Shown: piece by piece, positions 3,001 to 29,946 of the stretch
Layout of the letters: each line of letters opens with the position of its first letter
How positions within the stretch are numbered: position 1 is the first letter of the stretch
DNA from: a virus
Strand: one strand, 5' to 3'
IMG/VR virus record: IMGVR_UViG_3300047478_000291
Coordinates: 1 to 30,291 of that record
Length of the DNA stretch: 30,291 nt
Translations under genes and position numbers: made by a program
The notes under the pieces: model-generated
What the model was told of the DNA's origin: nothing
Database searches by the model: none
Seen by the model: only the letters and a program-made list of their open reading frames with translations

Positions 3001-6000
3001 TTCCGGACTGCTGTTGAGCCATCTTAAACGCAAGTGACCTAGGATCTGCAGCTTGGTTTAGGACATCTGCAATACCGCCAACAGCAAGAGCGCCAATCGT
3101 GAGGCCAAGTCCGCCACCTCCAGTCAGCCATTTTCCAGCCTTACTTTCTTTTCCAGTAATATCACCCAACCATTGGGTAGCAGCGAATGCGCCGATTCCC
3201 ATTTGAGCGGCACCACCAACTTCTCTTCCTATACCCTTAGAAGTGACCATCCCAAATACGTCCAAAGGTGACGTTGGCGTTCCATAGAGTCCGGACATAA
3301 TCGCGGATCTCTGCTGAGGAGTCATATAGCGCTCGCCAACACCAGATTCCCTGGCGGCACCCTCCGAAAACTGAGATCTTAGAGCTTGCGATTCCTGCAT
3401 ACCAGGAGCAAAACCACCAGTAGCAAGACCAAACATCGATCGCAAATACATAACGCCAAAGCCACCAAGCGCACGTCGGGCGACATGACCAATATCAGCC
3501 TGTTCGCTCTTGTAGTAGTCCTCAACTGATTTTTCGGCGGCTCCACCCTGCTTCAATAATCTCTGGGCTCCAGTAATTAATCCACGACCAGTCGCCTGCT
3601 CTTCTGGCGTTCCAGTAAGCATGGATCTCCCCTCTGATATAGCAACTTCTCCAAGTTGTTTGGTTCCATATCCCGCAGGAAGCTGAGCCGATCCACCAGT
3701 CTTGGCCAGAGTATTTTCGAGATCCATTATGGTGTTGCCAAGGGATTGGTTGAGTTCGGCTGCTCTGCCAACATCCTTCCACACCTCAGTGGCCTTCATA
3801 GCAATGGCACTGGTATCGTCCATTCTCTCGCCAACCTTCTTAAATGATTCCGCGAGTCTATCGGCTGTACCAGTCATGTTCTTTATCTGCTCTTCGGTCA
3901 TTGGAACGGCTTCTTTACCTCCACCAGTTCCACCTCCACCAGTTCCACTTCCGCCCTTACCACCACCGAGTTGTTCCCATAGGCTTTGCAGGGCAGTAAG
4001 ACCATGCGCAGCATGCGCAGCGTCCTGCTTGCTATCGGAGTATATTGCCTTAAGCTGCGCGGAACCAACCTTATCTGGAGCAGCAAGTAAATTCTCTCTA
4101 GCTTGAGCAACGCGACTCTGTTGGCCAGCAAGTTCCTTTACGCCAACTGCATTCACTGTTTCTTTGATTCGAGCAAGTAACTCTGGATTCTCCTTAAGTC
4201 TCTGTCTTACTAGTTCTGCCCCCGCGGTCTTTCCGGATATTAATCCCGCAACCGCAGCGGCTTCTCTGCTCTCGGATGTTTTGGATGCCCTAATCCCCTC
4301 GATATTTGTTTTCTCGTCATCGGATAGCGCCCGCTGCACCTCTTCGCTATTTATTAGTTCAGATAGACTCTGACTAATTCCAGGCGCAACTTTTTCATAT
4401 TGGGTCTGTGCGCTATACCATTCACTTACTAGCTTTCTCTTGGCCTCGAAATGTCCAGGAACGCGCCATCCATAGCCACCGTCGCCCTTGCTCTTATTGG
4501 GTGGACCGTTTTTCTTAGAAGATCCAGTTCCGGGAAGAGTAGGCGCATTGCCCTCCTCACTCTCACCTTCCTCACCGCTTTTATTGGCGAGGGTAATAGC
4601 ATTCTTCTTAAGATCTTCTTCAAAGAGATTGTTATTCGTCTCCGTCTCACTGGCTACATCAGATCCAGTGATACCCCTAGTGGATAATGAAATTTGCTGG
4701 CTTTTTTCACCCTCAGTTTTCGGGAGATGGGTAGCAAGCTCGTCGTGCTCTGCCTGTGATAAACCAATCTTTCCACCTTTGCCGACAATACTTGGATTGT
4801 GACCAAAGTTTCTTCTTAGGCCCTCGATGGCCACATCGGGATCAGTTCCACCCTCAACTTGTGATTGCAGATAGGCTATTTTTCCTTCGTGTGTTGAGAG
4901 ACTGGTTTCTAGTTCTTGGGGGGTAGGCGCAGATATACGACTGGGGGTAGAGGTTCGAGCTTCCCATTCCGAAATTCTCTCTCCGATATTCGCGGCACCT
5001 TTTTGTGCGCGCTTTGCTTTTTGCTCAATTGATTCACGACCTTGTTGCCCTGGCTCAAACTTACTTGCCGCGGCTTCGCCCCACCATCTCGATTCATATC
5101 GAAGGGCTGTGCCCTGCTTTATTTTTGCTTTCTCGTATTCTTCGGAACTGGTGATCGGCTTAATCGGATTTCTTAGATCACGAGTGATACTTTCAATATT
5201 GTTACTTTGTATACCAGCATCAGCCTTAAGCGCATTTGTAATAAAGGCCGACTCCTCGTCCGTAAGCGGCTCTACCTCATTATTTGCTTGCTGTGATCCC
5301 TTTCCGGGAGCGAGAGCGTTCACCTTAAGATCGGTAATAACCTCACCCCTAGTATTTACTATACGATCCTTATCCTCGACCACAGGCGAACTACCAGACA
5401 ACATATCAACATTCTTGCGATTTTCATCTAAAATATCCTGAACCCATTTCGGAACTGGTTGACCTGGAGTGCTAAATTTAGCGAAAGAGAATAGACGGGT
5501 CACGGATTCAACAATGCCCTTAGGAAGCCTGAACTCAGATATAGTCTTTAGAGTTCCGCGCTTATACGCATCGGTTGTACGTAAAATCTCTCCCTCGCTA
5601 AGCTTCTTGAGATCCATAATATTCTCTGGCATCTGCGACTTGATTTCCTCGACAACATCCTTAACCATTTTGTCTACAGAGCCCTTACCAATAAGAACAT
5701 TAAAGAGATGAGTGGCACTAAAAGTCTTGCCAATCTGAAGCATATGAGCATCTACATTGCCCTTGCCGATGGCGTTCATGACTCCCTCTACCCAATCATG
5801 CGCAAGAACAGGTGTGCCCTTACCCTCAGGAGTGCCACGGGCTTCGTCGTATTGCTTTTTGTAGTCCTCTAGAGTCGCTCTTAATTTATTTGGATTCTCT
5901 TTATAGGCCTCGATAATTCCATACTTATTGATAGCGGCCTGCCATTCACCAGATGCAAGTGTTTCTTTTCCACCATGCTTGGCCTCGGTAATAGTTAATC

Positions 6001-9000
6001 TACCCTTCTCGAGTTTAAGAAAATCGGGGATAAAGCGAATCTCTGTTCCTGCAATATTTGCAGTTATAGCACGCCCCTTTCCAACGTGCATGCCAAACTG
6101 TCCTTCTTTCTGGCGTTGGGCTATAATCTGTTCTGCTGCAGTACCCTCTTCGAGCGTAGCGCGATCTTCCTCATCGTAATCCCAGATATCAGTTGTTCTA
6201 TACTTGTCGCCAAGCTCATACATTTGCCCGACCCACTCTGCAGTAGCGCCAAGCATCTTTTGATATAAAAGTTTATGCCCACGAGCAGTCTTAACATTCA
6301 ATGATTCTACGCCAGCGGCAATACGAGCGAAGTCACTGGCACGCATACTACGCATACCCTGTCTGGCACGAGCTTGCATCATCTCCCTGCCAAGACCACC
6401 CCACTCTTTTTCAGTTTGAATCTCTATTGCATCATTGATGCCCATGTCCTGGGCAAAACCAGCTAGCCTTTGACCTTCCGGACCATTGGTAACAGTCGGA
6501 TCCGTTGAAGCATTCATGATATCGTTAATATCGTACTCGCGTATTCCACGACCAGTACGAATAGCCTTAAGAATACCAAGCGTGTTATTGATTCTATCGC
6601 GAAACGTTCCTCCATCAAAAGAGACATCTCTTAGCAAGTTTTCCTTAATATCAAGAGGGACATCCTTGCTGGCTTTTGCTGTTTGACGCAGGGAAAAGTC
6701 TACAATCGCTCCGAGAGGAGACTGAGCTTTGGCGATACGCTCAAGCAAACCCTTCCTTCCCGCAATACGAACGTATCTATCAATACCCTTGCTACCATCA
6801 ACGGTATCGATAATATCCTGGGCAAGCTCCGGGTCGTTAACACCACCAAAATACACACCCAACATCTGGTCGTTGAACGATTTTGATCTAGTATATGTGG
6901 ACAAGAACAGGTTCAGAATTTGTTCTCTTCGTGGAGTAACATCACCGCCCATACTCTCTTCTGGATTCGTAATTGTAGTCCAGTGCATCTTACCGCTCTC
7001 TGCTGGCAAACCAATGGAGTACCTATTGCCGCCATCAAGAGTTACCTTTAGGCTTTGAAAGAACTTTTCTAGTGGATCGCCCCTGGACGCGGCTTCGTTG
7101 GCTTCAAGAGATGACTGGACGTTCTGAATACCATAAGCTCCAAGGGCCCTGGTAAGAACATCCGATGTAATCCCCATAACAGCAACGGCTTCTTCCATCT
7201 GGCGAATTGTATTGTACGAGGAGGCGCGTCTCGCACGAATTTCGGACCACATCTGCGCTACATCATTTAGGACACCAGCGCGAACCCATCCAAAGTCGGC
7301 GGACTTCCCAGGCTTAAATCCCTCAGTGTAGGCTTCGTGAAAGTCTGCATAGTACTGACCAATATGAGAGTACTGCCGAACAAGATCCTCATTGTCACCA
7401 AGACCCTCCTTGAACTCCTTGATATATTCTGCGCCAGTCTTGCGCATAGCTTTTTGCCATTGGCTTGTCGCAGTGATCAAGTCCTTAACCTTGAGAACAC
7501 CAGCTTCTTTTTGCGTGATAAGTCCAGACCAAATAAGGGCCTTGTCAATATCGCGGTCGCCAATGCCAGACTCATGCATCCATCGGTTAACCCATATAGT
7601 TCCCTGTGCACTCGTGAGATCGGCATTTGGATCGTACCTGTCCCCATATTGTTTTCTGTATTGATCGGAGGTAAGAATCTTTACTGCATGAACTCCACCA
7701 ACAGATGGGATACGATGAAAGAACGCTGGAAGATATCCACGCTTTTTTACATTATCAATGAACTTCTTGGCGTCCTCTTCGACCTCCACTCCAGGCTGTT
7801 GCCATGCAAGTGCCTCGAGTTGAGCATCAGACATAACCGCTTCGTTTGGGGCTAGCTCATCGAGAATGTTATAGTTTCTCGAAATGGCAGCACCAGTACG
7901 AATAGTACTAAGAACCTTGTTGGCCTTGTTGCTTCTATCTATAAGACCGCTCTGGTAGTTTACAAATCTGCGATATGCAGAACCACCCTGTGCTCTCCCA
8001 GAGACTTCTGCATTTAATAAGTCGAGAACAGCAGACAGATATCTGGCAGACATACCAGTTGTAGCTTCACCAGTGGCTTTATTGTATTCATCGAGATACT
8101 GTGGAACATTGGTGGTTGGCATATATGCGCCAGTGCCCTTGAAGTAGAGCATATCAGTAAGGCTGCCGCCCTTTTTCTGGAGAATATCAGACAGCTTCTT
8201 TACTTGCTCAACACCAATCCCCTTGCCAGATAGATCGGATTGAGTCATATCGAGCTCTGCCATTATTTCTCTAGCAACCTTCTGGTCGATCATTAAAGTA
8301 TTCGGGGTTTTGTAGGTAGTACCAGTAAGGGCCTGATTTCTATACTTATCAGATTTAATAAGATCGACCCATGCCTTTACATTATTGCTTGGATCGCCAG
8401 CACCAAGAACACCCTTGCTTCCAGAAAGACCAAGGATACTCGCGAGTCCTGGGCCAGCAGCAGTATCAGGAAATGCTGCATTAAATTTTGCGACGGCCTG
8501 TGTGGGTATCTTGCCGCCACCCATAGGCCATTCCGCGGACACGCCAATAACTTTCGGCAGGATATAACTACCAGTTGGTATAGGGGTGCTTACTCTGAAT
8601 AGGCCTCCTGGCATCTCTTCGAATCTGATGTTATCCGTAGATGGATCGACAAGATTTCCCTCTTTATCGTGATACGTTGCCTTGAACTGGTCGACAGCTT
8701 CCTTTGTAAGAATTTCTGTCTGCATGCGCTCGCTAGGATTTGTGATACTATAAATACCAAACCTACGATAGTTGGCAAGTCTCTGGGTTGGATCTTGTTC
8801 ATCCAGAATTGTCTTGATGGCTTTTCCAATAATTTCCCGTGGAGTTTCGTACATCCTCTTGCCTTTAATAAGGCCAAGTGGACTGGGAAGAGACGCGTAC
8901 ATATTGGCGATATATTGTGGCGAAAGGTTTTGCGCAGAAATACGCCCACTCTGAACGTCCTTACGAACAATACGCTCGAGATCCGGATCGACAATGCTGA

Positions 9001-10897
9001 GCATACGCATCTTGTTTTCAAATGGTTGGGCCTCCCATGCTCCAACCCATAAATCGCCACCGGACTTTACTTCCTGGGTAATCGACGCGGCGCGTGCCAC
9101 GCCACCGCCTGGGAGAGATACCTCCCATCCCTCAAGCCCAGTAGGAGTAGCAGACTCCTTGACACCACGAAGCTTGAGACCCAAATCAACGAAACCACTA
9201 GTCGCAAGGGACAAATACATTCTATTTGTTCCAGAGTATTCAATCTTTGCCTGTCCCTTGCCAATAAGCTTTCGGAAATCAGCATCCATACTACTAGTCT
9301 CTACCCATGCCTTACGTTCCTGCTCTGATGCATTAGATGGAACGATGGGAGAGAACTCATTGGTCGTCATATTAAAGTATTTTGGCACAACCAGTGTAAT
9401 GGCGTCTACCTGGGCTTCGTATGGCTTTGCCTTTGTATACAAGGGCTTTTGAGTTGGCTTGCCATCCTTCATGACAGTAACAGAACCTATTCTTAAGCCC
9501 TGCGGACGATTTGCCTTAGACGATCTTCCAACCACGTCTTCGAGATCAAGTGCTACTCCACCTTCTTTGGTTTGCTGGCGGAGTGCCTCCGTCATTTCCT
9601 GCGGAGTCTGCCATGGCAATGGGACAACCTGAGAACCACTAAATGCATAGCCAATCTTGTTGCCAGCGGAATCGGTTTGTGGAATAGCGTTCTTGGCAAC
9701 GTATGATGTTCCGGCACCGGAAACTGTTTGGGTAACAATGGTGGACATCGCAAGAACATTCTGGCCACGGATATCCATCCACAGCCCACCACGTTGTCCG
9801 AAGCGCTCTCCATAGTATTCTGGCTTACCAGTAAAGGGATACTGTTTGTCCGTACGCTCGCTGCCAGTTCCAAGAACATCATCTGGAGTGGGAGCAGACA
9901 TTCTCTTACGCATAACCCTACCAGTAGCCTCATCAAAAGAGGCTACGACAGGATGGACCTCTTCTCGCGACTCGAATAATGACGGAAGTTGTTTGAATGT
10001 CTTAAGCCCCTTTTCTCCCATACGTGGAAGTTGTACTTCCTCTTCGCCAAAGGCTCCCCTACGAACATTGGCCTCTGGCCATGTCTGAAGAACCTTATGC
10101 ACTGGATCGTAGTATACTGGAGATTGCGTGTAGTAGCGTATACCAGAAAGGCTGCGCTCGAGTAGCTGCTGTTCCTTGTAGGCCTTTTCTGGCCCCCAAT
10201 AAATAGATATTCTGCGCGATAGTTCCTCGTAAAAGGTTGGGCGCTGTTGTCCCCAGGCCAAGCCACCAGCAGAAGAGATATGAAATTCCTGCCTAATACG
10301 TTTCATCATCTCTCCGCCACGACCAGTCTCGGCGGAACCCATAATAGCAGACAGAGCGGTAGTTGGCGTTCTGGCTCCAGAAGATTGTGCAGGTTCTTCT
10401 TCGTAGAGTTTATGTCCACCACGAATAATGTCGGCTATTTCCTGGACGGCATCGACAACTCTATATTGAGTTGCTCCTTCCTCTCGATATGCCTTGCCAC
10501 CATAAGTTCGCTCAGCGGCCTCGCCAACCTGACCCTCCTGACGAATGGCAACTACTGGAGAGCCAGTTACGGCACTCTCTAGTTTCTTTTTGCCACCCGG
10601 CTCCATAAGGGTGCGCATATCAATAACCATCTCGGGACCACCACGATGTGAAATAGCGAATCTTCCATAGGCACGCTCCTGCCCCTCTGCGCTTTCTCCG
10701 GTAATTTGGTCTGCTACACGAACGGCATAATCTTTGCCAAGAGACGTGCGAAGTCCACGAAGAAGATCCTTTAGAGAACCAGTCTTAAGTGGACCATAGT
10801 CGGCATCAGATACACTGGAGTTTGTAAGGGTGCTTCCAGCATGAGGGTCGTAGTTTGGATCGTTCTTTTGGGGGTCCCACAATGGGTCGTTTGTCAT
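1..10897 (-). CDS. Giant tape-measure protein (partial, runs off left edge)
   Basis: I read one stop-free frame of 3632 codons from an ATG at 10897 to the left edge; the C-terminus is outside the window. The start follows an AAGGAA ribosome site and lies 3 bases after the stop of the chaperone frameshift product, the classical position of the tape-measure gene. Tape-measure proteins set tail length and sit inside the tail tube. Visible parts: a long N-terminal region of unknown fold (about 1-1500); a PD-(D/E)XK-like segment (1583-1660); an acidic and polar low-complexity stretch near 2100; a Gly/Ser/Thr linker (about 2310-2327); hydrophobic Gly/Ala segments (about 2475-2615) that could be membrane-active; Gly/Gln/Asn-rich sequence; and a Gln/Glu-rich probable coiled coil from about 3436. 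The assignment rests on position, size and composition. The N-terminal 2300 residues are unlike an ordinary tape measure and may hold ejected enzymatic domains. Confidence 0.8.
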   Translation of the reverse strand, partial: MTNDPLWDPQKNDPNYDPHAGSTLTNSSVSDADYGPLKTGSLKDLLRGLRTSLGKDYAVRVADQITGESAEGQERAYGRFAISHRGGPEMVIDMRTLMEPGGKKKLESAVTGSPVVAIRQEGQVGEAAERTYGGKAYREEGATQYRVVDAVQEIADIIRGGHKLYEEEPAQSSGARTPTTALSAIMGSAETGRGGEMMKRIRQEFHISSAGGLAWGQQRPTFYEELSRRISIYWGPEKAYKEQQLLERSLSGIRYYTQSPVYYDPVHKVLQTWPEANVRRGAFGEEEVQLPRMGEKGLKTFKQLPSLFESREEVHPVVASFDEATGRVMRKRMSAPTPDDVLGTGSERTDKQYPFTGKPEYYGERFGQRGGLWMDIRGQNVLAMSTIVTQTVSGAGTSYVAKNAIPQTDSAGNKIGYAFSGSQVVPLPWQTPQEMTEALRQQTKEGGVALDLEDVVGRSSKANRPQGLRIGSVTVMKDGKPTQKPLYTKAKPYEAQVDAITLVVPKYFNMTTNEFSPIVPSNASEQERKAWVETSSMDADFRKLIGKGQAKIEYSGTNRMYLSLATSGFVDLGLKLRGVKESATPTGLEGWEVSLPGGGVARAASITQEVKSGGDLWVGAWEAQPFENKMRMLSIVDPDLERIVRKDVQSGRISAQNLSPQYIANMYASLPSPLGLIKGKRMYETPREIIGKAIKTILDEQDPTQRLANYRRFGIYSITNPSERMQTEILTKEAVDQFKATYHDKEGNLVDPSTDNIRFEEMPGGLFRVSTPIPTGSYILPKVIGVSAEWPMGGGKIPTQAVAKFNAAFPDTAAGPGLASILGLSGSKGVLGAGDPSNNVKAWVDLIKSDKYRNQALTGTTYKTPNTLMIDQKVAREIMAELDMTQSDLSGKGIGVEQVKKLSDILQKKGGSLTDMLYFKGTGAYMPTTNVPQYLDEYNKATGEATTGMSARYLSAVLDLLNAEVSGRAQGGSAYRRFVNYQSGLIDRSNKANKVLSTIRTGAAISRNYNILDELAPNEAVMSDAQLEALAWQQPGVEVEEDAKKFIDNVKKRGYLPAFFHRIPSVGGVHAVKILTSDQYRKQYGDRYDPNADLTSAQGTIWVNRWMHESGIGDRDIDKALIWSGLITQKEAGVLKVKDLITATSQWQKAMRKTGAEYIKEFKEGLGDNEDLVRQYSHIGQYYADFHEAYTEGFKPGKSADFGWVRAGVLNDVAQMWSEIRARRASSYNTIRQMEEAVAVMGITSDVLTRALGAYGIQNVQSSLEANEAASRGDPLEKFFQSLKVTLDGGNRYSIGLPAESGKMHWTTITNPEESMGGDVTPRREQILNLFLSTYTRSKSFNDQMLGVYFGGVNDPELAQDIIDTVDGSKGIDRYVRIAGRKGLLERIAKAQSPLGAIVDFSLRQTAKASKDVPLDIKENLLRDVSFDGGTFRDRINNTLGILKAIRTGRGIREYDINDIMNASTDPTVTNGPEGQRLAGFAQDMGINDAIEIQTEKEWGGLGREMMQARARQGMRSMRASDFARIAAGVESLNVKTARGHKLLYQKMLGATAEWVGQMYELGDKYRTTDIWDYDEEDRATLEEGTAAEQIIAQRQKEGQFGMHVGKGRAITANIAGTEIRFIPDFLKLEKGRLTITEAKHGGKETLASGEWQAAINKYGIIEAYKENPNKLRATLEDYKKQYDEARGTPEGKGTPVLAHDWVEGVMNAIGKGNVDAHMLQIGKTFSATHLFNVLIGKGSVDKMVKDVVEEIKSQMPENIMDLKKLSEGEILRTTDAYKRGTLKTISEFRLPKGIVESVTRLFSFAKFSTPGQPVPKWVQDILDENRKNVDMLSGSSPVVEDKDRIVNTRGEVITDLKVNALAPGKGSQQANNEVEPLTDEESAFITNALKADAGIQSNNIESITRDLRNPIKPITSSEEYEKAKIKQGTALRYESRWWGEAAASKFEPGQQGRESIEQKAKRAQKGAANIGERISEWEARTSTPSRISAPTPQELETSLSTHEGKIAYLQSQVEGGTDPDVAIEGLRRNFGHNPSIVGKGGKIGLSQAEHDELATHLPKTEGEKSQQISLSTRGITGSDVASETETNNNLFEEDLKKNAITLANKSGEEGESEEGNAPTLPGTGSSKKNGPPNKSKGDGGYGWRVPGHFEAKRKLVSEWYSAQTQYEKVAPGISQSLSELINSEEVQRALSDDEKTNIEGIRASKTSESREAAAVAGLISGKTAGAELVRQRLKENPELLARIKETVNAVGVKELAGQQSRVAQARENLLAAPDKVGSAQLKAIYSDSKQDAAHAAHGLTALQSLWEQLGGGKGGSGTGGGGTGGGKEAVPMTEEQIKNMTGTADRLAESFKKVGERMDDTSAIAMKATEVWKDVGRAAELNQSLGNTIMDLENTLAKTGGSAQLPAGYGTKQLGEVAISEGRSMLTGTPEEQATGRGLITGAQRLLKQGGAAEKSVEDYYKSEQADIGHVARRALGGFGVMYLRSMFGLATGGFAPGMQESQALRSQFSEGAARESGVGERYMTPQQRSAIMSGLYGTPTSPLDVFGMVTSKGIGREVGGAAQMGIGAFAATQWLGDITGKESKAGKWLTGGGGLGLTIGALAVGGIADVLNQAADPRSLAFKMAQQQSGRTFSLTAPLAEAVDKQFRPEEYKAEYNMAAAMAFYSGAKKDNSRFLDWGSYVKETPKSRQVMGALMGGDLTVEQATRLGMGPVGTNAPLADVVSKGAPAYASQMVALHPETQPVAIDVATFMLQNSMKGQDYEKLAQQWQYGFARPETLASMGQVFGYNQFAMNQGGVMGQQMMNLANMPMTSQQSNVVLQGLQFGQGLGNFGATLGLSATDQAGWVSQAQEWAKYAGNISGDIYSQSVQGYMSTLGTKGQMPVLSPPTREVANPEYTAWAAEQMKRDRGENYASGKPTVDEILDKWAKERGDRELTPAMESLNRWQAQGMVNRGATYEELRITPKAGTYEPILATPAPSKFITETMTPQEAVPWGFANQVNTILNQTYQMQGAGGIAAPRPDYRTTVNAGQTTAEMVKMAQAQQDVYSMGPGQTIARLRQYWSQEGVSAREQRDWLNEIRPTVGKQIFSRGRGGVLVERPEYDLSRVTGGAGAAMLQYQDLRGQIEQQTATYGGTVPSALPSYGGNVGIAQQYVTQSAAAQASWIQSQPAVMRNPSMAAGVNRYADLMTNATPGQFNLMQGLAQLSPYALTTAAARGYPDFIQNAFASQNLVTNSGAPISMNQAAMGSTVGTNFVGPNGIGAVNGTAYGQTSFATWNQGSAQVAQSIFGGSWNQDYSQFMPAAGSGISAGAVQAGFGQGYQLPGGLNVGGMMGMNLYGAQLSYQASMASAGNSLAQLNLASAFTTGVGLQQYAGTVNPQTGSPFGFNTGPTSWNVPGAGSFTSTGGGFWGMQDAQMQLGFAQQERQFEFQRQGMNIQSSQFYTNMAQQQQQVQAQRGWTQQDWQYNAQQRGQAWQWQQQDFQEDVRFMTGRQRRLAERQMGRATTVHDQEDAQIEKQKERQQELWNMEDERFQTQKNQFEENRAFQLEQLESAEAFFEASKKMQEESQAMQRAFWVEQQKLQREAIAAQAGFAKQQFELQQTMAAVQIAILLAQGAFDDMNKDVKDNIV
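5918..6151 (-). other. PD-(D/E)XK nuclease-like segment inside the giant tail protein
   Basis: Residues 1583-1660 of the giant protein show the motif order of the PD-(D/E)XK (RecB/Cas4-like) nuclease fold. There is a helix with a G-x3-E pattern (G1585, E1589), then beta-strand-like sequence ending in Pro1624-Asp1625-Phe, then 12 residues later Glu1638-Ala-Lys1640 on a hydrophobic strand. A Gln1653 to Tyr1659 helix follows, loosely like the QxxxY motif. Spacing and residues fit an active site that binds a divalent metal and cuts DNA or RNA. This is motif reading only; no profile search was possible. Confidence 0.5.
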
Positions 10898-21791: not shown

Positions 21792-23414
21792 TTATCTGGA
21801 TCTTTTGGCACGGTCGTCAGAGGCTTCTCTTTGGGCTCGCTGGCCTCCTCGGATGGCTGCACCCACCGTAACAAGGTCTTCAGCAGTTTCGTCAGGAAGG
21901 TCCGCATTAAAATATATCCTTGCTGCCCAACACGACATCGATAACATGGCTACGATGTCCTGAGGTATCTTTGGCTGTCCCGCTCTGTCTTTCATGGGAT
22001 CGTAATTGGCAAGTTGGGCGCGAATGCCAATCAGAGTTTTCGGCCACGCAATCTTAGCACTCTCGATAGTAAGTCTTGCTGCTACGAGATACGCTGGTTT
22101 ACGAGCACCACTAAAGTCTAGTCCCGCAATAGACTGAAACCCCGGAGCATCTAATGATGCGTCTGGGTCAAAGTTCTGTATATTGAGCAACTCGGCAAAC
22201 ATCTTTTGAGGGCCAGTACTATCGATGGCTGTAAAGATAGCGTCATAGGTAGTACGTAACTCTAGAAGCTTGTCAACGAAGGGCGATATCTGCCCAAAGC
22301 CGTTTCCCCACCAGAAAGCGGTGAGTACCATAGGCTCTTGGGGAAAGCCTGTAACGTCCCAAACACCAATACAGGGAGCGTTACGACCAGGGGCGTTATC
22401 CGAACCTGGATCCCCAATACAGAAGTACATGTGTCCCTTGATGGGAGGAATGGCGTAGTGTACAACTCCGCAACCGTACTGTTCCGCATATACAAATCCT
22501 TTTGTTCCGGCACCGGAAGCCTTCTTGACCATCTCTCCGGAGAGATCGTCTTCGCACTTACCGATAGCCTGTCTGTTGAAGTAGATGCCTTGTCCCTCGG
22601 GGCGAGCACCATCAATAAAGCGAGCGCGTTCGTCCTCCGGGATATGCTTGAGCATATTGTCAAGCTGTTTCTCGGTTACGTTTTGGTTGCCTCTAGTAGA
22701 GACCTGTATTGAGAAACAATTTTCCGGATCTGCCGCCGCCATGTCAAATAGGTACCAGAGGTGCGGGGTATCCCATGGGTTAGAGGTGAAGGAGAACCTA
22801 CCCAGATAAGGTCTACCCGATCTTGTGTTACCCGTAAGACGAGTTGAGAGGTTACGGGAGATTTCATCAAGGTTGTCAAGAAGTCCAGCTTCTTCGACGT
22901 TAATCCAGTCGCCACGCCAGGAGAAGATTCCTGTGGCGTCTCTATCGACAGACATAAACTCAAGTGTGGAATGTATAGTTTGCTGGCCAAGTTTATACTC
23001 TATTGTTATCTTATGGTGTGGTCGTCTCACCGCTGAGACGATTAGGTTCGAAAAAGGCGCATCCGTAGCCCTCTCGATAATCAGGTCGTACATCTGGGCC
23101 GCTTGGTACTCCTTCTGGGCCACGTTCAGGAATTTGAAATCTGGAGTTGTAGTGCCAAAGACACACGCCGACATACCAACCCCTAGAGTCTTACCACTGC
23201 CAATCCCACCAATTAGAACTATAAGACTCTGGGCCGCAAAATGCATATCTCGTTGCCATGCGCCATCCTCTGTAAAATTCTTGTCAAAGTACCAGCCCTC
23301 ATCTGCGTACTCGGGCTTGAAGAAGTATCCCGTAATGAAATCAGGATTAGTTTGACCTTTGAGGATAATCTCCGCCTCTTCCTCAGTAGCCTGATAAATA
23401 CGCTTAGATTTCAT
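21792..23414 (-). CDS. terL: Terminase large subunit
   Basis: 540 residues starting at ATG 23414. The N-terminal ATPase shows a Walker A loop (IGGIGSGKT, residues 68-76), a Walker B region ending in acidic residues (WINVEEAG, Glu174-Glu175) and a coupling motif (FTSNPWD, about 209-215). The C-terminal nuclease has candidate metal ligands at Asp335 (FCIGDPGSD) and Asp398 (TAIDSTGP), as in the RNase H-like fold. It pumps DNA into the procapsid and cuts the concatemer. The length fits. No good ribosome site is seen before it, so translation may be coupled or weak. No small terminase gene was recognised upstream. Confidence 0.85.
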   Translation of the reverse strand: MKSKRIYQATEEEAEIILKGQTNPDFITGYFFKPEYADEGWYFDKNFTEDGAWQRDMHFAAQSLIVLIGGIGSGKTLGVGMSACVFGTTTPDFKFLNVAQKEYQAAQMYDLIIERATDAPFSNLIVSAVRRPHHKITIEYKLGQQTIHSTLEFMSVDRDATGIFSWRGDWINVEEAGLLDNLDEISRNLSTRLTGNTRSGRPYLGRFSFTSNPWDTPHLWYLFDMAAADPENCFSIQVSTRGNQNVTEKQLDNMLKHIPEDERARFIDGARPEGQGIYFNRQAIGKCEDDLSGEMVKKASGAGTKGFVYAEQYGCGVVHYAIPPIKGHMYFCIGDPGSDNAPGRNAPCIGVWDVTGFPQEPMVLTAFWWGNGFGQISPFVDKLLELRTTYDAIFTAIDSTGPQKMFAELLNIQNFDPDASLDAPGFQSIAGLDFSGARKPAYLVAARLTIESAKIAWPKTLIGIRAQLANYDPMKDRAGQPKIPQDIVAMLSMSCWAARIYFNADLPDETAEDLVTVGAAIRGGQRAQREASDDRAKRSR

Positions 23415-23425
23415 TTATACCCATA

Positions 23426-23462
23426 ACCAATGTTCTTGGTTGTATCACCAATATTCATGGTT
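23426..23462. repeat. Two near-identical 16-bp palindromic repeats before terL
   Basis: ACCAATGTTCTTGGTT (23426-23441) and ACCAATATTCATGGTT (23447-23462) match at 14 of 16 positions. Each is an interrupted inverted repeat (AACCAA/TTGGTT or ACCA/TGGT). Their starts are 21 bp apart, two helical turns, so a protein could bind both on one face. They fill the short gap before the terminase start. They could be an operator, a packaging-recognition site, or hairpins that affect terL translation. Confidence 0.6.
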
Positions 23463-23737
23463 TATTGACCCTGGCGCGCTCTAGAAATATTGATCTTCCA
23501 TACATTCTGCGCAGACCATAGATCACGTAGAGGAATACATAAATCGTCAATATCGCCACATGAAACAAGATTCGCGATATCTATAACCTGTTCGTATACA
23601 AAGAAATACGTGCAGATAATCCCATCTGCCTCGATACGTACCGGGGCGCACTTCATAGACATAAGTGCGATAACCAATTTTTCTTCTGAACTTGCAAACT
23701 CCTTTGGTGCAGAACCATCAACTATTGTTCTTTTCAT
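23462..23737 (-). CDS. Small protein before terL, unknown
   Basis: 91 residues starting at ATG 23737 after an AAAGGAG ribosome site. It has mixed helix and strand, several Cys (Cys35, and others near 47 and 65) and a basic C-terminus. It sits where a small terminase often lies, but I see no helix-turn-helix or typical small-terminase coiled coil, so I do not call it that. The start context AAATACTAAAAGGAG resembles the leaders of two other genes in this window. Confidence 0.6.
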   Translation of the reverse strand: MKRTIVDGSAPKEFASSEEKLVIALMSMKCAPVRIEADGIICTYFFVYEQVIDIANLVSCGDIDDLCIPLRDLWSAQNVWKINISRARQGQ

Positions 23738-23748
23738 ATATACTCCTT

Positions 23749-25359
23749 TTAGTATTTATAACACCAAAACTGCCACCATTTACATGGTTTAGGCGTTCTG
23801 GTTGGTGTAGGTGTTCTTGTTGGCCACGGTGTCCTAGTAGCGGTTTTTGTTGGGACAGATGTCTTAGTGGAGGTTGCAGTTAACGTAGATGTCTGTGTTG
23901 GAGAACTAGTCAAAGTAGGTGTTCTCGTTAACGTAGACGTTCTTGTTGCCGTAGCTTCTTGGGTGGCAGTATACGTACTAGTGGGTTTCGGCGTAGATGT
24001 ATCCGTAGCCGCGAGTGTAGCAGTTAATGTTGGAGCAGGCGGGGTTAATGTTCCTGCATCTGGTACCAATATATTGTTTCGTATTGTCACGTTTGCCCCG
24101 CTCACTTTATAGATATAAACACCAAAGCCAGGGTGCGCTATGGTATTGTATTCAATAAGATTTTCCGTTCCTTCTAAGTGTGCCCAAGTAATTCCGTACC
24201 CAACTGGATTTATAATTATATTATTGGTAACGCTAAGACTTTGACCGTGATGGAACGAAGATGGTCTATTATCCACATAGATCCCATCGTGCCAATATGT
24301 GCCTGCAGTCCCAACATTTGATATATAGTTATCGTGAATGGATCCACCCATTCCAGAGTAGGTGATTCCATTTCCACCAGAGTTTGTGACGGTATTGTCG
24401 TGAACATCGCACACGTCTCCGGTGTTGATATTAATCGCACCAATATCTGTCATTTCCAGTTGGGCGACATGATCAAAGGTATTATTGTTTATCTCGCAAT
24501 CGGAAACTGCAGACCCGAATTGCATTGCCTTGTCTCCTGTATTCTCGATTACCTCATTGTAAATATGTAAACCATAAATAACAGGATTGACAACCACTAC
24601 TCCATAGGTAATACTTCCGTCTGGGTTTATACAACTGCGAGTGTATGGTATCGTGGAGTAATTAGAGTTTCCTATATAGTGAGATAGGCCGATATCGCTT
24701 GGGATACTTCCGTGGAAATAGTTGTCATGGATGATGATTTCGTGCATATTAAAGTTGGAACGATCGACCTCATCCAAGATATTGATGATTCCATCTCCAT
24801 TGTAATCCCACTCATCGTTATTTTTGCCATTCGGAATAGGACAGGTTGCAACTTGGGTTATGTGAATTCCAATGCTGCTAGAAACATTGGCAACATAACC
24901 AATAATATTTTTAAACTCAATATGGTCTATCTCTATATAATCGGGTTTAGCTGCATCAAGTATCCCGAAGGTTTTCGCCCTTTGTACCACAAAGCCGTAT
25001 TTGTCTGCGCTTCCAGTTCCCGTAATATGAACATGTTGTATATTTGCGATAGACATACCGTAGCCAGTTGCAGTGTCAATAACAACCTGCCCGCCATGAT
25101 TTATGACGGTGATAGGGTTTTCGGAGGTTCCAGCAAAGTTCTTAAGACCTAGTGAACCCCTTGTTCCCGCCGAAATACAAATAGTATCTCCTGGTTGAAG
25201 TGCGGTATAGGGAGAATATCTACCATTCACAGTAGAAACATTGGTAGGTACGGTAAAATCGCACACTATTTCTTGAGCGACGGATTTTGTATCTTGTGGA
25301 GCAAGACACATGGATAGTACCATAACAAGAATCAACGACAGTAAAAGCACCCTCTTCAT
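23749..25359 (-). CDS. Exported parallel beta-helix protein with Pro/Thr-rich tail
   Basis: 536 residues starting at ATG 25359 after an AGGAGGG ribosome site. Residues 1-24 form a signal peptide (basic start, hydrophobic core, SMCLAPQ). The middle holds right-handed parallel beta-helix repeats with Asn ladders and short Ile/Val strands (INNNTFDHV, IHDNYISNV, VTNNIIINP), as in pectate-lyase-like and tailspike-type proteins that bind or cut polysaccharide. A dockerin-like calcium loop (residues 185-196) is inserted. Residues 438-525 are a Pro/Thr/Ser-rich stalk, followed by an 11-residue end with two Cys and three Trp. Catalytic residues are not clear. It may be secreted by the infected cell, act as a depolymerase, or modify the cell surface. 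Confidence 0.7.
   Translation of the reverse strand: MKRVLLLSLILVMVLSMCLAPQDTKSVAQEIVCDFTVPTNVSTVNGRYSPYTALQPGDTICISAGTRGSLGLKNFAGTSENPITVINHGGQVVIDTATGYGMSIANIQHVHITGTGSADKYGFVVQRAKTFGILDAAKPDYIEIDHIEFKNIIGYVANVSSSIGIHITQVATCPIPNGKNNDEWDYNGDGIINILDEVDRSNFNMHEIIIHDNYFHGSIPSDIGLSHYIGNSNYSTIPYTRSCINPDGSITYGVVVVNPVIYGLHIYNEVIENTGDKAMQFGSAVSDCEINNNTFDHVAQLEMTDIGAININTGDVCDVHDNTVTNSGGNGITYSGMGGSIHDNYISNVGTAGTYWHDGIYVDNRPSSFHHGQSLSVTNNIIINPVGYGITWAHLEGTENLIEYNTIAHPGFGVYIYKVSGANVTIRNNILVPDAGTLTPPAPTLTATLAATDTSTPKPTSTYTATQEATATRTSTLTRTPTLTSSPTQTSTLTATSTKTSVPTKTATRTPWPTRTPTPTRTPKPCKWWQFWCYKY
23785..24048 (-). repeat. Coding Pro/Thr-rich low-complexity repeat
   Basis: Codons 438-525 of the beta-helix protein are nearly all Thr, Pro, Ser, Ala, Arg and Lys, with a loose TPT-R/S-T rhythm that becomes denser at the end (PTRTPTPTRTPKP). 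Such stalks are common in secreted proteins of Chloroflexota, where they act as flexible and often glycosylated spacers. The DNA shows degenerate GTT/GTA-rich repeats on the plus strand, consistent with repeat expansion. Confidence 0.6.
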
Positions 25360-25368
25360 TAAGCCCTC

Positions 25369-25587
25369 CTATAAAAGCCCTCGACTAACAAGCACATAGA
25401 TCAATTCTTTGGCTTGTTCTCTTCCAAACTTGGGTTTTTTCTCTTCTGGGCATTTCTCCCTAAAAAGTGATGCATATTCGTCTACAATCATATCGCACAT
25501 CTTATTTATCTCGCTTTGCGCTTCTGGAGACAAAGATGCGTGTAAACGACTGATATTCTCAGGGGTAAGTGGCTGCGTCATTTTCAT
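25369..25587 (-). CDS. Small helical protein, unknown
   Basis: 72 residues if started at ATG 25587, which overlaps the upstream stop in an ATGA (25584-25587). An earlier in-frame start at 25623 would overlap the upstream gene by 40 bases and is less likely. The protein is helical and acidic/basic (it contains LSPEAQSEINKMCDMIVDEYAS and PKFGREQAKELIYVLVSRGLL), with no motif I recognise. It ends inside the ribosome site of the beta-helix gene. It may be a small regulator or assembly factor. Confidence 0.6.
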   Translation of the reverse strand: MKMTQPLTPENISRLHASLSPEAQSEINKMCDMIVDEYASLFREKCPEEKKPKFGREQAKELIYVLVSRGLL

Positions 25588-25790
25588 GATGTTCTTTTCT
25601 CTCTTCCCCACGAAATACTCCATGGTATCTCGTAAAATGGTTTATATGGATGGGATCTATGTAATTCGATGCCACTGGGCTTAAAGTACACGGAATATGC
25701 CGTGGTGCTGTTTTTTACACCAATAACAAGGTTTTTTGGGCCACGATCGAAATCATCGACGTTCCCATAGTAAAACTTGAACTTAATCAT
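25584..25790 (-). CDS. Small protein, unknown
   Basis: 68 residues starting at ATG 25790 after an AGGAGAA ribosome site. It is rich in aromatic residues, Lys and Ser, with beta-strand character (KFKFYYGNVDD, YSVYFKPSGIEL) and a basic C-terminus. There is no signal peptide or membrane helix. It is the first gene after a promoter-like site and is coupled to the next gene by an ATGA overlap. The function is unknown. Confidence 0.6.
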   Translation of the reverse strand: MIKFKFYYGNVDDFDRGPKNLVIGVKNSTTAYSVYFKPSGIELHRSHPYKPFYEIPWSISWGREKRTS

Positions 25791-25813: not shown

Positions 25814-26197
25814 CTATTCAAAGTTTTCGTAATGGCCGTTCCAGAATCGTCTTGTAAGCGTTTCTATGAGTCTGGCCATCCTTTCATTCTGGGATCTAAA
25901 GTTCCAGTCATGTAACATCGCCCAAAAGCTTGCGATATGCCATATTTCGTGTGCCGCAGTTCCTACACCGTATTTTCCAGTAACAAGATGGATTTCTCCA
26001 TACTTTTTGGGGATTAGCACCTCTTTTGTCTCTTTGTTGACAAAACACTTGGTAGAAACAGCATATCCGTTAGCTTTTGTAATATTATTCATCTTTTCGA
26101 GGGTTTCACTCGAATCCCAGACGAAAACACGGATATAGTGCTTTTTATTGAACTTTACCTCCCACCAAGCCACCAATCCCTCTTTATGAGTATGCAT
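25814..26197 (-). CDS. Small HExxH putative metallopeptidase-like protein
   Basis: 127 residues if started at ATG 26197, which overlaps the epimerase gene by 14 bases; an earlier ATG at 26236 is possible but overlaps more. Residues 83-87 are HEIWH in the helix TAAHEIWHIASFWAM, the zinc-binding and catalytic pattern of zincin metallopeptidases. A Glu at 105 or 112 in the following helix could be the third ligand. The N-terminal half is beta-like and basic. There is no signal peptide, so it would act inside the cell. The substrate is unknown. Small zincins of this kind occur in phages, and a structural role without catalysis is also possible. Confidence 0.5.
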   Translation of the reverse strand: MHTHKEGLVAWWEVKFNKKHYIRVFVWDSSETLEKMNNITKANGYAVSTKCFVNKETKEVLIPKKYGEIHLVTGKYGVGTAAHEIWHIASFWAMLHDWNFRSQNERMARLIETLTRRFWNGHYENFE

Positions 26198-27245
26198 TGA
26201 TGATATCCATAATGTTTTTGGTCGCATTGCCATCACCGAACAGTGGAAGTTGCTTGCTCATCACCCCACGATAGTCTGTGATGGCGGAATTGATGCGAAG
26301 GGGGTCGGAACCAACAAGAACGTTCCATCCAGCAGCAAGTGTCTCGGGCCACTCAGTCTCCGTGCGCAAAGTGATGCACGGAACCTGAAACCAATAGGCT
26401 TCTTTCTGCATACCGCCAGAATCAGTGATTACATACCTCGAATTCTTTTCGAGGGCCAGAGTATCTATATATCCCATGGGCATAAGCGGAATGACATTGA
26501 CTGGCATCTTAATCTTATACTTTTCCATGGTTTTAGCTGTATGGGGATGTACCGGAAAGACAACTTCCATTCCAGACATACCAATACCAGTCATAATTCC
26601 TGCCAGGGCGTATGGGTTGTCAAGATTGTACGATCTATGCACCGTCATGATGGAATAACTGCCAGGAGTGAGATTATGACGTTGTAAAACATCAGATGCA
26701 GCGGCTTTGCCAATATGTTGCAGGAAAGAGTCGTAAGTAATATCTCCGGTAAGGAAAATGCCCGAAGGGATCGCCTCGTTTATCAAGTTTCTGGTTGAGA
26801 TCATGGTTGGGCACAGTAAGAGTTGGGAAACGTGATCTGTGAGGATACGATTGTGTTCTTCGGGCATATTTCTATTATAGGAGCGGATCCCGGCCTCAAT
26901 ATGAGCAAGCTTAATTCCCATCTTATTTGCTGCAAGTGCGCCAGCCAGGGTAGATGTAGTATCGCCAAAGACAACCACCATCCCTGGTTTCTCGACTGCG
27001 AGTACGTCACCAATCATATCGATCATTCGCCCAAGTTGACGTGTTGGTTCTTTGTCTACCACATTTAGATTGATATCTGGTTTATTAATGGTAAGTTCTT
27101 CATAGAAACGATCGGAGAGTGTTGTATCGTAGTGCTGGCCAGTATGTATAGCGTATTCAATGTGTCCGGCACGCTTAAGTGCCTCGCTTAGAGGAGCGAG
27201 CTTGATAAATTGAGGGCGAGCGCCAACAATAGTTGCTATTTTCAT
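26184..27245 (-). CDS. UDP-GlcNAc3NAcA 2-epimerase-like (WlbD/WbpI type)
   Basis: 353 residues starting at ATG 27245, whose ATGA overlaps the upstream stop. It belongs to the non-hydrolysing UDP-sugar 2-epimerases (WecB superfamily): IVGARPQFIKLAPL at the N-terminus, a GDTTSTLAGALAA loop with Asp95, AHIEAGIRS with Glu117, PEEHNR at 128-133, TVHRSYN and TDSGGMQKEAY. The segment TLRTETEWPETLAAGWN fits the WbpI/WlbD subgroup better than WecB. These enzymes convert UDP-GlcNAc3NAcA to UDP-ManNAc3NAcA, a precursor of O-antigen sugars. It is last in the wlb-like operon. Confidence 0.75.
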   Translation of the reverse strand: MKIATIVGARPQFIKLAPLSEALKRAGHIEYAIHTGQHYDTTLSDRFYEELTINKPDINLNVVDKEPTRQLGRMIDMIGDVLAVEKPGMVVVFGDTTSTLAGALAANKMGIKLAHIEAGIRSYNRNMPEEHNRILTDHVSQLLLCPTMISTRNLINEAIPSGIFLTGDITYDSFLQHIGKAAASDVLQRHNLTPGSYSIMTVHRSYNLDNPYALAGIMTGIGMSGMEVVFPVHPHTAKTMEKYKIKMPVNVIPLMPMGYIDTLALEKNSRYVITDSGGMQKEAYWFQVPCITLRTETEWPETLAAGWNVLVGSDPLRINSAITDYRGVMSKQLPLFGDGNATKNIMDIINAYS

Positions 27246-28351
27246 GAAAGCTCCTCTATGATATCGCATATGGTGTTAATTTGTCTTGTAAACTGGTATG
27301 GCCGCATAGGAAGTGCTATTGTTGTACGCGATGCATAACGAGCACTGGGAAAATCGTCGCCACTCACACCTGGGAATATCCATTGGTCCGGAAGAGACAT
27401 TGGATAATAAATACCAGTATCTACGCCGCTATCCCGAAGGTGTTTAATCATTGCGCCGCGACTTTGCTCGTTTTGAGCGCCAACAATATAGAGATGGTAA
27501 ATATGGTGATTACCAATTTCCTCAAATGGATAATCGAGTACCTCGCTGTTTATCAGTCGCTTGTTATACGTTTCTGCGTTACGTCTACGCCACGCATTCC
27601 ATGAATCGAGATATGGGAACTTGGCATTAAGAACGGCAGCCTGGATTTCGTCCATCCTGAAGTTACCGCCAAGAACGCGAGAATAATACTTTTGTTTCTG
27701 TCCATGATTACGGATCATCATCAGTTTATTGTAGAGACACCAATCGTTTGTGACTATTGCTCCACCATCGCCGTAACCACCAAGGTTTTTGGTTGGAAAG
27801 AAACTAAAACAGCCCATGTCGCCAATACTACCAGCTTTCTTGTAGTGTTGCGATGCGCCAATCGCTTGACAGGCATCCTCTATGACGACAAGACCATAGG
27901 CCGCAGCAAGTAGCATTATTCTGTCCATGTCCGCCATCTGCCCAGCAAAATGCACTGGAATTATGGCCTTCGTTTTATCTGTGATAGCGGCCTCGATATG
28001 GTTTGCGTTAATGTTGTAATCACTAATGCAGATATCCACAAACACTGGTGTTGCGCCAAGTCTGCTTATACAACTTGCAGATGCAACAAACGAATAGGAT
28101 GGAACAATGACCTCATCGCCGGGTCCGATTTCGCATGCCATGAGGGAGGCAAGCAGAGCGTCGGTTCCAGAGGACACTGCCACGGCATGTCTTGTACCAC
28201 AATATCGCGCTAGTTCTTCCTCAAACCTCTCGACCTCGGGCCCAAGAATAAAATGCTGACTTTCGACTACTCTTTCGATGGCCTCGTAGATTTCGCTACG
28301 CATTTCCTCTAGTTCATGCTTCAGATCGTTTAACGGATACCTTATTTCCAT
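27242..28351 (-). CDS. Sugar aminotransferase (DegT/DnrJ/EryC1, WlbC/WbpE-like)
   Basis: 369 residues; the ATG at 28351 overlaps the acetyltransferase by 38 bases but has a GGAGAGG ribosome site and gives the full N-terminus of the family. The fold is PLP-dependent type [26 protein letters not shown], Asp159 in VIEDACQA, and the catalytic Lys188 in [13 protein letters not shown] that forms the Schiff base. The enzyme would aminate the 3-keto sugar from the WlbA-like step, using glutamate. Its stop overlaps the epimerase start by ATGA, so translation is probably coupled. A related specificity such as VioA or QdtB type is possible, but the neighbours favour WlbC. Confidence 0.75.
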
Positions 28352-28823
28352 CTTTGTCTACCTCTCCAATCTTTTTTGCTGGATTTCCTACCACAACAGT
28401 GTATGGCTCAACGTCTTTGGTGACAACCGCGCCCGCGCCAACCATAGCGTACTCGCCAATATGCACACCACAGATAATAGTTGCGTTCGCGCCAATGGAT
28501 GCGCCCTTGCTTATAAGAGTTGGTTTGAATTCGTCCTTGCGCTCTACGGTCGCCCTTGGGTTTATTACATTAGTAAAGACGACAGACGGCCCAATGAATA
28601 CATCATCTTCGATGGTTACGCCAGTATAGACGGACACATTGTTCTGTATCTTCACGTTATTGCCGATATACACCTTCGGGGCTATGTAAACATTCTGCCC
28701 AATGATGCATCTTTCTCCGATTTTGCACTGACCAGAGATATGAGAGAAGTGCCAGATCTTGGTATAGGAACCAATTTGTGTTGGAAAGTCGACAACCGAG
28801 GTTATATGCTTGGTATATTTCAT
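28314..28823 (-). CDS. N-acetyltransferase (left-handed beta-helix, WlbB/WbpD-like)
   Basis: 169 residues; the ATG at 28823 overlaps the stop of the small upstream gene by ATGA. It shows hexapeptide repeats of the left-handed beta-helix ([40 protein letters not shown]), and the [17 protein letters not shown] segment that is typical of WlbB/WbpD-type enzymes. A further [29 protein letters not shown] stretch lines the acetyl-CoA site. It would acetylate the 3-amino group of UDP-GlcNAc(3N)A. The C-terminus ([16 protein letters not shown]) ends the helix, and the length is close to that of the family. Confidence 0.8.
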
Positions 28824-29032
28824 TTTGCCAGTGTCCTAATCAGCTTTAGACTGATTTCTCGTGGTTTTACACGATTTATACGAAACAAATAGTTGTTAAT
28901 TTGGATGGTACTGCCAACTCTAAACCATTTATATGGTGCAGGGGCGTCTTCTGGCTCATTTTCACTGATTTTTTCCTGTATTTTCTGCTGAATGGTATCA
29001 ATTTGCTTCTCGGACATGATATCTTCGTTCAT
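28820..29032 (-). CDS. Small protein within the sugar operon, unknown
   Basis: 70 residues with ATGA overlaps at both ends (29029-29032 and 28820-28823), so it is translated as part of the operon. The N-terminal 30 residues are helical and acidic ([20 protein letters not shown]); the rest has beta-strands ([19 protein letters not shown]) and a basic C-terminus. I do not know it from bacterial wlb clusters. The coupled position between the WlbA-like and WlbB-like genes suggests a role with the sugar enzymes, or simply a phage insertion that keeps coupling. Confidence 0.6.
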
Positions 29033-29946
29033 TTTTCCTCCATAGTGATTATAGATCTGATATTTTGGGCTAAAACAAGGGCCGGACGAGCGTCCTCGAT
29101 GGTAAAACCATCTCCGCCAAGCGTTTTCTTGTAAACTTCAGTGTGTAGATCGGTGAATCCACCAGTAAAGTCTACACTAACGCCATCGACCCATAGTGTT
29201 CTTACTGGTTTGTAGGGAACTAATTGTTGTTCGGGTAAACTTCTCGGATCGATGGATAATCCCCAACGAGTTTTGGCCTTTTTCTGGAAAAACTCACCAG
29301 TAATATACTTATCGCCATGCGAGTGAATGTCTACATGATAAACGTCGCCAAACAGCCAGATAAGCATATCCAACAAATGGATGCCAATATTGGTGATCAA
29401 ACCGCCCGATTTCTCTACATCGCCCTTCCAGGATTCATGATACCATCGTCCACGAGGAGTAATATATTTCATCTCGACATAGTGTATATCATCGGAGGCA
29501 TCTATACGCTCTTTTAGCTTCACGAGTTCTTCCTGTAGGCGTAACTGCAGTACGGTATAGATCCTTTTGCCAGTGCGTTCTTCCATATCATGCAATAGAT
29601 CGAGATTCCACGTATTCAACGTGAGCGGTTTCTCGCAAATCACATTGGCACCAGCCTCTAATCCCAATCGGCAGTGCGAATCATGTAAGTAGTTAGGGGA
29701 ACAAACACTAACCCAATCAACTTTATCTGGGCTATCGGTGAAGCGAAGCTTCTGAAGACAGCGCTCCAGTCGTTCCGCTTCCGAGAAGTAATCAATATCG
29801 TACGAATACGAATCCAAGCGCCCTACTGAATCATGGGGATCTAGCACGGCCACGATACGATTACCTGTCTCTTGAATTGCTTTGAGATGCCTGGGGGCTA
29901 TATATCCCGCTGCGCCTATCACTGCAAAGTTTTTCTGATCTATCAT
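29029..29946 (-). CDS. UDP-sugar 3-dehydrogenase (Gfo/Idh/MocA, WlbA/WbpB-like)
   Basis: 305 residues starting at ATG 29946 after an AAAGGATAA ribosome site. The N-terminal Rossmann fold has GAAGYIAPRH at 11-20 and IVAVLDPHDSVG at 31-42; SVCSPNYLHDSH at 80-91 and the GANVICEKPL segment with Glu105-Lys106-Pro107 are hallmarks of this family. The substrate domain has a GGLITNIGIHLLD stretch with His190, the likely catalytic base. The wording AAGYIAPRH and DPHDSVG matches WlbA-type enzymes that oxidise C3 of UDP-GlcNAcA with NAD. It is the first gene of the cassette. A UDP-GlcNAc 6-dehydrogenase is not in the window, so the host or another phage gene must supply UDP-GlcNAcA. Confidence 0.8.
   Translation of the reverse strand: MIDQKNFAVIGAAGYIAPRHLKAIQETGNRIVAVLDPHDSVGRLDSYSYDIDYFSEAERLERCLQKLRFTDSPDKVDWVSVCSPNYLHDSHCRLGLEAGANVICEKPLTLNTWNLDLLHDMEERTGKRIYTVLQLRLQEELVKLKERIDASDDIHYVEMKYITPRGRWYHESWKGDVEKSGGLITNIGIHLLDMLIWLFGDVYHVDIHSHGDKYITGEFFQKKAKTRWGLSIDPRSLPEQQLVPYKPVRTLWVDGVSVDFTGGFTDLHTEVYKKTLGGDGFTIEDARPALVLAQNIRSIITMEEK

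Follow-up and report, generated by a model that had tools for sequence, protein, structure and literature searches.

A stalked beta-helix protein with a signal-peptide-like N-terminus is encoded by an accessory gene next to phage packaging genes

Introduction

The exported proteins known from phages are mainly small exclusion lipoproteins and toxins. Right-handed parallel beta-helices occur in phage tailspikes, in PL6 lyases and in mannuronan C5-epimerases such as AlgE4 and AlgG, in which DPH is the catalytic motif. Two described proteins come close to the one reported here. Ltp of phage TP-J34 (PMC3952083), a surface-exposed exclusion lipoprotein, is phage-encoded, exported and placed on the infected cell, as we propose for our protein, but it is a lipoprotein and differs in fold, size and location. 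PfbA, a cell-wall-anchored beta-helix adhesin of Streptococcus pneumoniae (PMC3718772), is alike in fold (Z 21.9) and in its exported, surface-displayed plan, whereas its gene is bacterial, the phage protein has no LPXTG anchor, and no sequence relation between the two is shown.

Here we describe a beta-helix gene in a 30,291-base IMG/VR virus record (IMGVR_UViG_3300047478_000291), which is part of a genome rather than a whole one and is hereafter called the window. The encoded protein resembles secreted bacterial beta-helix proteins in descent and phage-encoded exported surface proteins in kind, and it departs in testable features from tailspikes, lipoproteins, LPXTG proteins and alginate epimerases.

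Results and Discussion

Gene, neighbors and start codon

An earlier note on this DNA, made from the letters alone, had placed the open reading frame exactly: it is intact and encodes 536 aa on the minus strand (Table 1). The minus-strand order runs from a sugar cassette (29946 to 26184) through 140-aa, 68-aa and 84-aa genes, the beta-helix gene and a 91-aa gene to the terminase large subunit and the portal, past which lie scaffold-like and capsid-like genes, tail genes and a giant tape-measure-like gene. The last of these (window 2-10897, minus strand, continued in L080 to 3970) encodes about 3,800 residues, is unusually large and has Gln-rich stretches near its C-terminus. The gene had been described as lying among phage head genes and just upstream of the terminase. 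The region is right, and packaging genes and small unknown genes adjoin it, but capsid genes proper are not its neighbors and the 91-aa gene intervenes before the terminase.

The direction of the gene and the 9- and 11-nt gaps to its neighbors are consistent with a packaging operon. No promoter-like site was found just upstream, and same-strand terminator-like sites fall only inside the open reading frame or in the next gene, with regional counts at chance level. The GC content is only mildly low, and composition argues only weakly for transfer.

A strong ribosome-binding site, GGAGGG, lies 4 nt ahead of the first ATG. Because in-frame starts beyond residue 4 (residues 9, 13, 17, 32 and 44) have no Shine-Dalgarno match, a start beyond the hydrophobic core is unsupported; we therefore reject a start after the hydrophobic segment, which had been raised earlier as a case against export.

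Table 1. Features of the beta-helix gene and its surroundings in the window
Feature	Coordinates	Strand	Evidence
Exported stalked beta-helix protein gene	23749..25359	(-)	ORF and translation, 536 aa, ATG start; not present between these flanking genes in sister phage L002
Shine-Dalgarno GGAGGG of the beta-helix gene	25364..25369	(-)	Sequence; overlaps stop codon of upstream gene
Signal-peptide-like N-terminus, residues 1-28, likely cleavage between SVA and QE	25276..25359	(-)	Sequence, hydrophobicity comparison, start-codon check
Right-handed parallel beta-helix domain, residues 33-434	24058..25263	(-)	PF13229 over cut-off; model pTM 0.68; VIA-align Z 20-23
EF-hand/dockerin-type calcium-loop motif DYNGDGIINILD, residues 185-196	24772..24807	(-)	15/20000 shuffles carry motif; sits in insert
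Thr/Pro/Ser-rich stalk, residues 435-522	23794..24057	(-)	Composition
C-terminal CKWWQFWCYKY, two Cys 7 residues apart enclosing Trp/Phe	23752..23784	(-)	Sequence
84-aa gene, upstream flank of insertion	25369..25623	(-)	70% identical to L002 gene ending 13 nt before 91-aa gene there
91-aa gene, downstream flank of insertion	23462..23737	(-)	78% identical in L002
Terminase large subunit	21792..23414	(-)	phrog_2, E 9.6e-15
Sugar cassette, four genes, WbpB, WbpD, WbpE, WbpI-like	26184..29946	(-)	Pfam, NCBIfam; kept in L002
Gfo/Idh oxidoreductase	29029-29946	(-)	Pfam, NCBIfam
Hexapeptide acetyltransferase	28314-28823	(-)	Pfam, NCBIfam
DegT aminotransferase	27242-28351	(-)	Pfam, NCBIfam
UDP-GlcNAc 2-epimerase	26184-27269	(-)	Pfam, NCBIfam

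Insertion relative to a sister phage

The closest relative found, L002, is a 20.4-kb record with a terminase 89% identical to that of the window and with portal, capsid and terminase proteins that are 73-89% identical. Its gene order is the same (four cassette genes, 140-aa, 84-aa and 91-aa genes, terminase, portal, capsid), except that the 84-aa and 91-aa genes lie 13 nt apart with nothing between them. In the window the beta-helix gene occupies this junction, 9 nt after one neighbor and 11 nt before the other, and searching the complete L002 record with the beta-helix protein gave no match. Since the same flanking genes adjoin without it in L002, the gene is an accessory gene, a clean one-gene insertion of the kind expected of a moron.

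A search for further phages with the flanking 84-aa gene returned L002 only. The related phage records searched with the beta-helix protein gave no match, a single copy is known, and none of the 28 clade records searched has a beta-helix family match. Because distant relatives thus also go without the family, gain in the window phage is favored over loss in L002, in a comparison that rests on one close relative. The 68-aa gene of the window (25584-25790, minus strand) is also missing in L002 and makes a further insertion beside the beta-helix gene.

Signal segment, stalk and C-terminal end

The protein begins MKRVLLLSLILVMVLSMCLAPQDTKSVAQE, and its signal-like N-terminus reads MKRVLLLSLILVMVLSMCLAPQDTKSVA, followed by QE. 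Judged by simple sequence rules rather than by a trained predictor, the true start carries a Sec-type segment with a basic n-region, a hydrophobic core and an AXA-like site (MKR...LLLSLILVMVLSMCLA...SVA, then QE), and the Shine-Dalgarno site stands at the first ATG. Cleavage likely follows SVA (residue 28), on our own reading of the sequence. N-terminal hydrophobicity is the highest among the window proteins checked (mean Kyte-Doolittle 2.97 over 15 residues; next 1.61), and no other protein in the window has a signal-like N-terminus, in agreement with the signal peptide proposed earlier. The protein was rejected as a bacterial lipoprotein: the lipobox pattern [LVI][ASTVI][GAS]C is not matched, as LSMC has Met at -1.

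The long Pro/Thr stalk described in the earlier note is present but is Thr-rich rather than Pro-rich, with 36 Thr, 12 Pro and 8 Ser in its 88 residues. It is followed by PKP and then CKWWQFWCYKY. No transmembrane segment was found at the C-terminus, which is TPKPCKWWQFWCYKY, without an LPXTG motif, hydrophobic stretch and basic tail, and an LPXTG wall-anchored protein was likewise rejected. The two C-terminal cysteines could close a small aromatic loop, and we speculate that the Cys-Trp-rich end serves as an anchor. In the viral collection, the pattern PC.WW..WC matches 64 contigs, none of them with a P/T stalk.

Fold and motifs of the beta-helix domain

In a six-frame search, the protein matched PF13229 above the curated cut-off (39.9 vs 25.9 bits). 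A plain hmmscan did not list this family, and the match is thus sensitive to filtering, probably through the HMMER composition bias filter. As the full-length model was poor (mean pLDDT 43), the helix domain was folded alone (residues 31-437), with three distant relatives. The resulting model has a pTM of 0.68, its C-terminal half lying mostly at pLDDT 62-91 and its N-terminal half mostly below 60, and it superposes on many solved right-handed beta-helices with Z 20-23, up to 22.9 over 270-309 residues (Foldseek, VIA-align). The right-handed beta-helix claimed from the sequence is supported by the profile match, the model and the superposition.

The top structural matches are AlgE/AlgG mannuronan epimerases and PL6 lyases (Z about 20-23), RbmB, several tailspikes (Sf6, 9NA, Pam1 and CBA120 TSP3, Z about 21-22) and PfbA. 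Because the Z scores are nearly equal and effectively tied, the model points to a carbohydrate- or surface-related fold and makes no choice among enzyme, tailspike and adhesin. A PDB sequence search gave nothing significant, and no Pfam or NCBIfam enzyme family matched the protein. PL6 is not among the Pfam matches up to E 0.1, and structural likeness alone does not decide the matter. No catalytic motif was identified, and a mannuronan C5-epimerase (AlgE/AlgG) was rejected, there being no [DN]PH anywhere in the protein.

According to alignments, the insert with DYNGDGIINILD is missing from homologues. From its sequence pattern, this loop may bind calcium.

Homologues and descent

The best homologue is WPO38840.1, a secreted protein from a Flammeovirgaceae (Bacteroidota) plasmid (29% over 349 aa, E 9e-23), in which a signal peptide and a secretion-sorting tail accompany PKD domains and an esterase-like domain. 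A second cellular homologue, WP_013124675.1 (22% over 260 aa), is encoded on Salinibacter plasmid pSR84 beside glycosyltransferases and a flippase, in a polysaccharide cluster. These secreted Bacteroidota/Rhodothermota proteins have the same N-terminal cap (QPGDxICIxAG...NPIT...GGQVVI) and beta-helix as the phage protein. The phage protein differs in adding the EF-hand-like insert, the Thr/Pro stalk and the Cys-Trp end, and in the alignment it does not keep the acidic residues of GGEG and GWDG that are common to both plasmid homologues.

Two viral homologues were found, in L014 and L013. A signal peptide and a sorting tail mark the L014 protein; both are missing from the L013 protein (29% identity), whose gene belongs to a stretch of probable virion genes. 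When compared directly, the Flammeovirgaceae protein reaches 110 bits, ahead of L013 at 65.9 and Salinibacter at 52.8, with L014 below the reporting limit. A tblastn search of 50,697 phage records with the beta-helix protein returned nothing, and single-sequence peptide-pattern scans yielded nothing closely related among viral contigs and, among genome contigs, a single weak match (27% identity) from an archaeon.

The earlier note had suggested a comparison with host secreted proteins as a check on acquisition. The best matches are indeed secreted cellular proteins, and we read the gene as an acquired accessory gene. It had also held that virion tailspike homologues without a signal peptide would speak against export; a virion-type one exists, in L013, but it scores lower than the secreted cellular homologue. 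The accompanying premise that phage structural proteins normally lack signal peptides is not universal. Downstream of its probable capsid gene, L013 (4103-16804, IMGVR_UViG_3300046529_000477) encodes at least five probable virion proteins whose signal-like N-termini end near Q, e.g., MKYLITILLILSCAVSFSQ.

The pre-terminase region in relatives

Among 31 relative loci scanned, only L084 and L085 have P/T stalks. L084 (IMGVR_UViG_3300009509_000705) encodes at 2443-3054 (+) a protein of 203 aa that combines a signal peptide, the sequence YMPLVFKN and a P/T stalk; it is unrelated to the protein of the window, and its gene lies directly upstream of a homologue of the 91-aa gene and the terminase. 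The L085 contig (IMGVR_UViG_3300009091_000278) begins partway through a P/T stalk (1-258, +) that finishes with LPITG, followed by a hydrophobic stretch and a basic tail, 2.7 kb upstream of the terminase, and a 123-aa signal-peptide protein (905-1276, +) is also encoded upstream of the terminase. The style of the P/T stalks allows no more than a guess at a Chloroflexota host.

The sequence up to 4 kb upstream of the terminase makes up 21.5% of that examined and holds both stalks (2/2), for which chance gives about 0.05. Signal peptides, called by a crude rule, occur upstream of the terminase in 4/94 ORFs, compared to 2/196 (p = 0.09, not significant). These figures are suggestive, though not significant, of an exchange slot for unrelated exported or Thr/Pro-stalked proteins in the pre-terminase region. 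A broader possibility, which we hold only tentatively and consider doubtful, is that this uncultured clade keeps the slot for swapping unrelated Sec-exported, Thr/Pro-stalked surface proteins that are expressed late, together with the packaging genes, giving the infected cell a new surface before it lyses.

Proposed role and alternatives

The explanation that best accounts for the whole, which we hold at roughly an even chance, is a late-expressed accessory gene whose exported, stalked beta-helix lies outside the cell and acts on envelope polysaccharide. The gene would have been gained as a single unit between two packaging-operon genes; it lies inside the packaging operon and is therefore likely to be expressed late. 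The host Sec system would export the protein, placing the beta-helix domain outside the membrane on its long Thr/Pro stalk, and an uncleaved signal segment or the Cys-Trp-rich end may hold it near the envelope, or it may be shed. There, as the fold and the homologues suggest, the domain would bind or process envelope or matrix polysaccharide. Plausible benefits are masked or altered receptors that would keep rival phages out, or progeny kept from sticking to debris.

Display on the infected cell, or release from it, to bind or process envelope polysaccharide is thus the likeliest role, with target, anchoring and benefit as we infer them. The earlier note had proposed a protein that is released or displayed and acts on polysaccharide. 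Sequence and homologues bear out the exported, stalked architecture; for the polysaccharide action the evidence is the fold class, in which lyases, epimerases, tailspikes and adhesins are tied. If the proposal is true, certain phages change the exterior of their host cell at a late stage of infection, here with a large stalked beta-helix protein and in relatives with other stalked proteins.

The same structural matches to AlgE/AlgG epimerases, PL6 lyases and RbmB would also suit a freely secreted polysaccharide enzyme, a lyase or epimerase encoded by an auxiliary metabolic gene that loosens the matrix or feeds the host, and the esterase-like domain of the homologous plasmid protein points the same way. 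We consider this unlikely, though it keeps appreciable weight: the protein has neither an enzyme family in Pfam or NCBIfam nor a DPH motif, the acidic residues shared by the plasmid proteins are not kept, and the stalk suggests tethering or spacing over simple release.

It is easy to label a beta-helix protein on a viral contig a tailspike or depolymerase, and here caution is needed. The beta-helix is the classic tailspike fold, with four tailspikes among the top structural matches, and the homologue in L013 lies among signal-like proteins downstream of a probable capsid gene. A virion protein (tailspike or decoration) with a signal peptide would have to be exported and then assembled onto particles or act at release, while dsDNA tailed virions are put together in the cytoplasm. 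The phage continues past the left end of the window in a 100%-identical record, IMGVR_UViG_3300043431_000339. Beyond the end of the tape-measure-like gene, that record carries a 137-aa gene, then a gene for a 1,426-aa tail-like protein and one for a 291-aa protein that starts like a beta-helix and lacks a signal peptide. Pfam gave no match for the 291-aa protein, which by our inspection of its residues may itself be a beta-helix. A candidate receptor-binding protein is therefore already encoded where phages usually have one, and this speaks against a tailspike role for the stalked protein. The beta-helix gene lies about 18 kb from this tail module, its product has the signal-like N-terminus that a tailspike would lack, no head-, tail- or other virion-attachment domain was recognized in sequence searches, and the gene is absent from a sister phage with closely similar portal, capsid and terminase. 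By gene location, signal segment and absence from the sister phage the protein fails the tests for a tailspike, and we regard a virion role as quite unlikely.

An exported product of a single accessory phage gene, with further exported proteins encoded in the corresponding region of L084 and L085, also recalls superinfection-exclusion factors, which, like phage-encoded surface lipoproteins, would occupy or hide the receptor. This is improbable: there is no lipobox, the protein is far larger than known exclusion lipoproteins, and the gene lies in a presumed late operon rather than in an early or lysogeny region, on a fragment that shows no lysogeny. A recently captured host gene without phage function, or an assembly artefact, is very improbable, for although the single known copy and the lack of the family in related records would suit it, both flanks match the same sister phage, the open reading frame is intact, the junctions are neat, and the beta-helix gene and the next gene have good ribosome-binding sites.

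Sugar cassette

The window also carries a WbpB/D/E/I-like cassette for a diacetamido uronic acid sugar nucleotide (Table 1); WbpB, WbpD, WbpE and WbpI lead from UDP-GlcNAcA to UDP-ManNAc3NAcA (PMC10622841). WbpA is absent from the window, whose end lies shortly past the cassette. The earlier note had set the beta-helix protein alongside this cassette, but L002 keeps all four cassette genes without the beta-helix gene, and the two are therefore not obligate partners. The cassette genes are 52-70% identical in L002, compared to 89% for the terminase, suggesting that the cassette evolves faster than the packaging genes.
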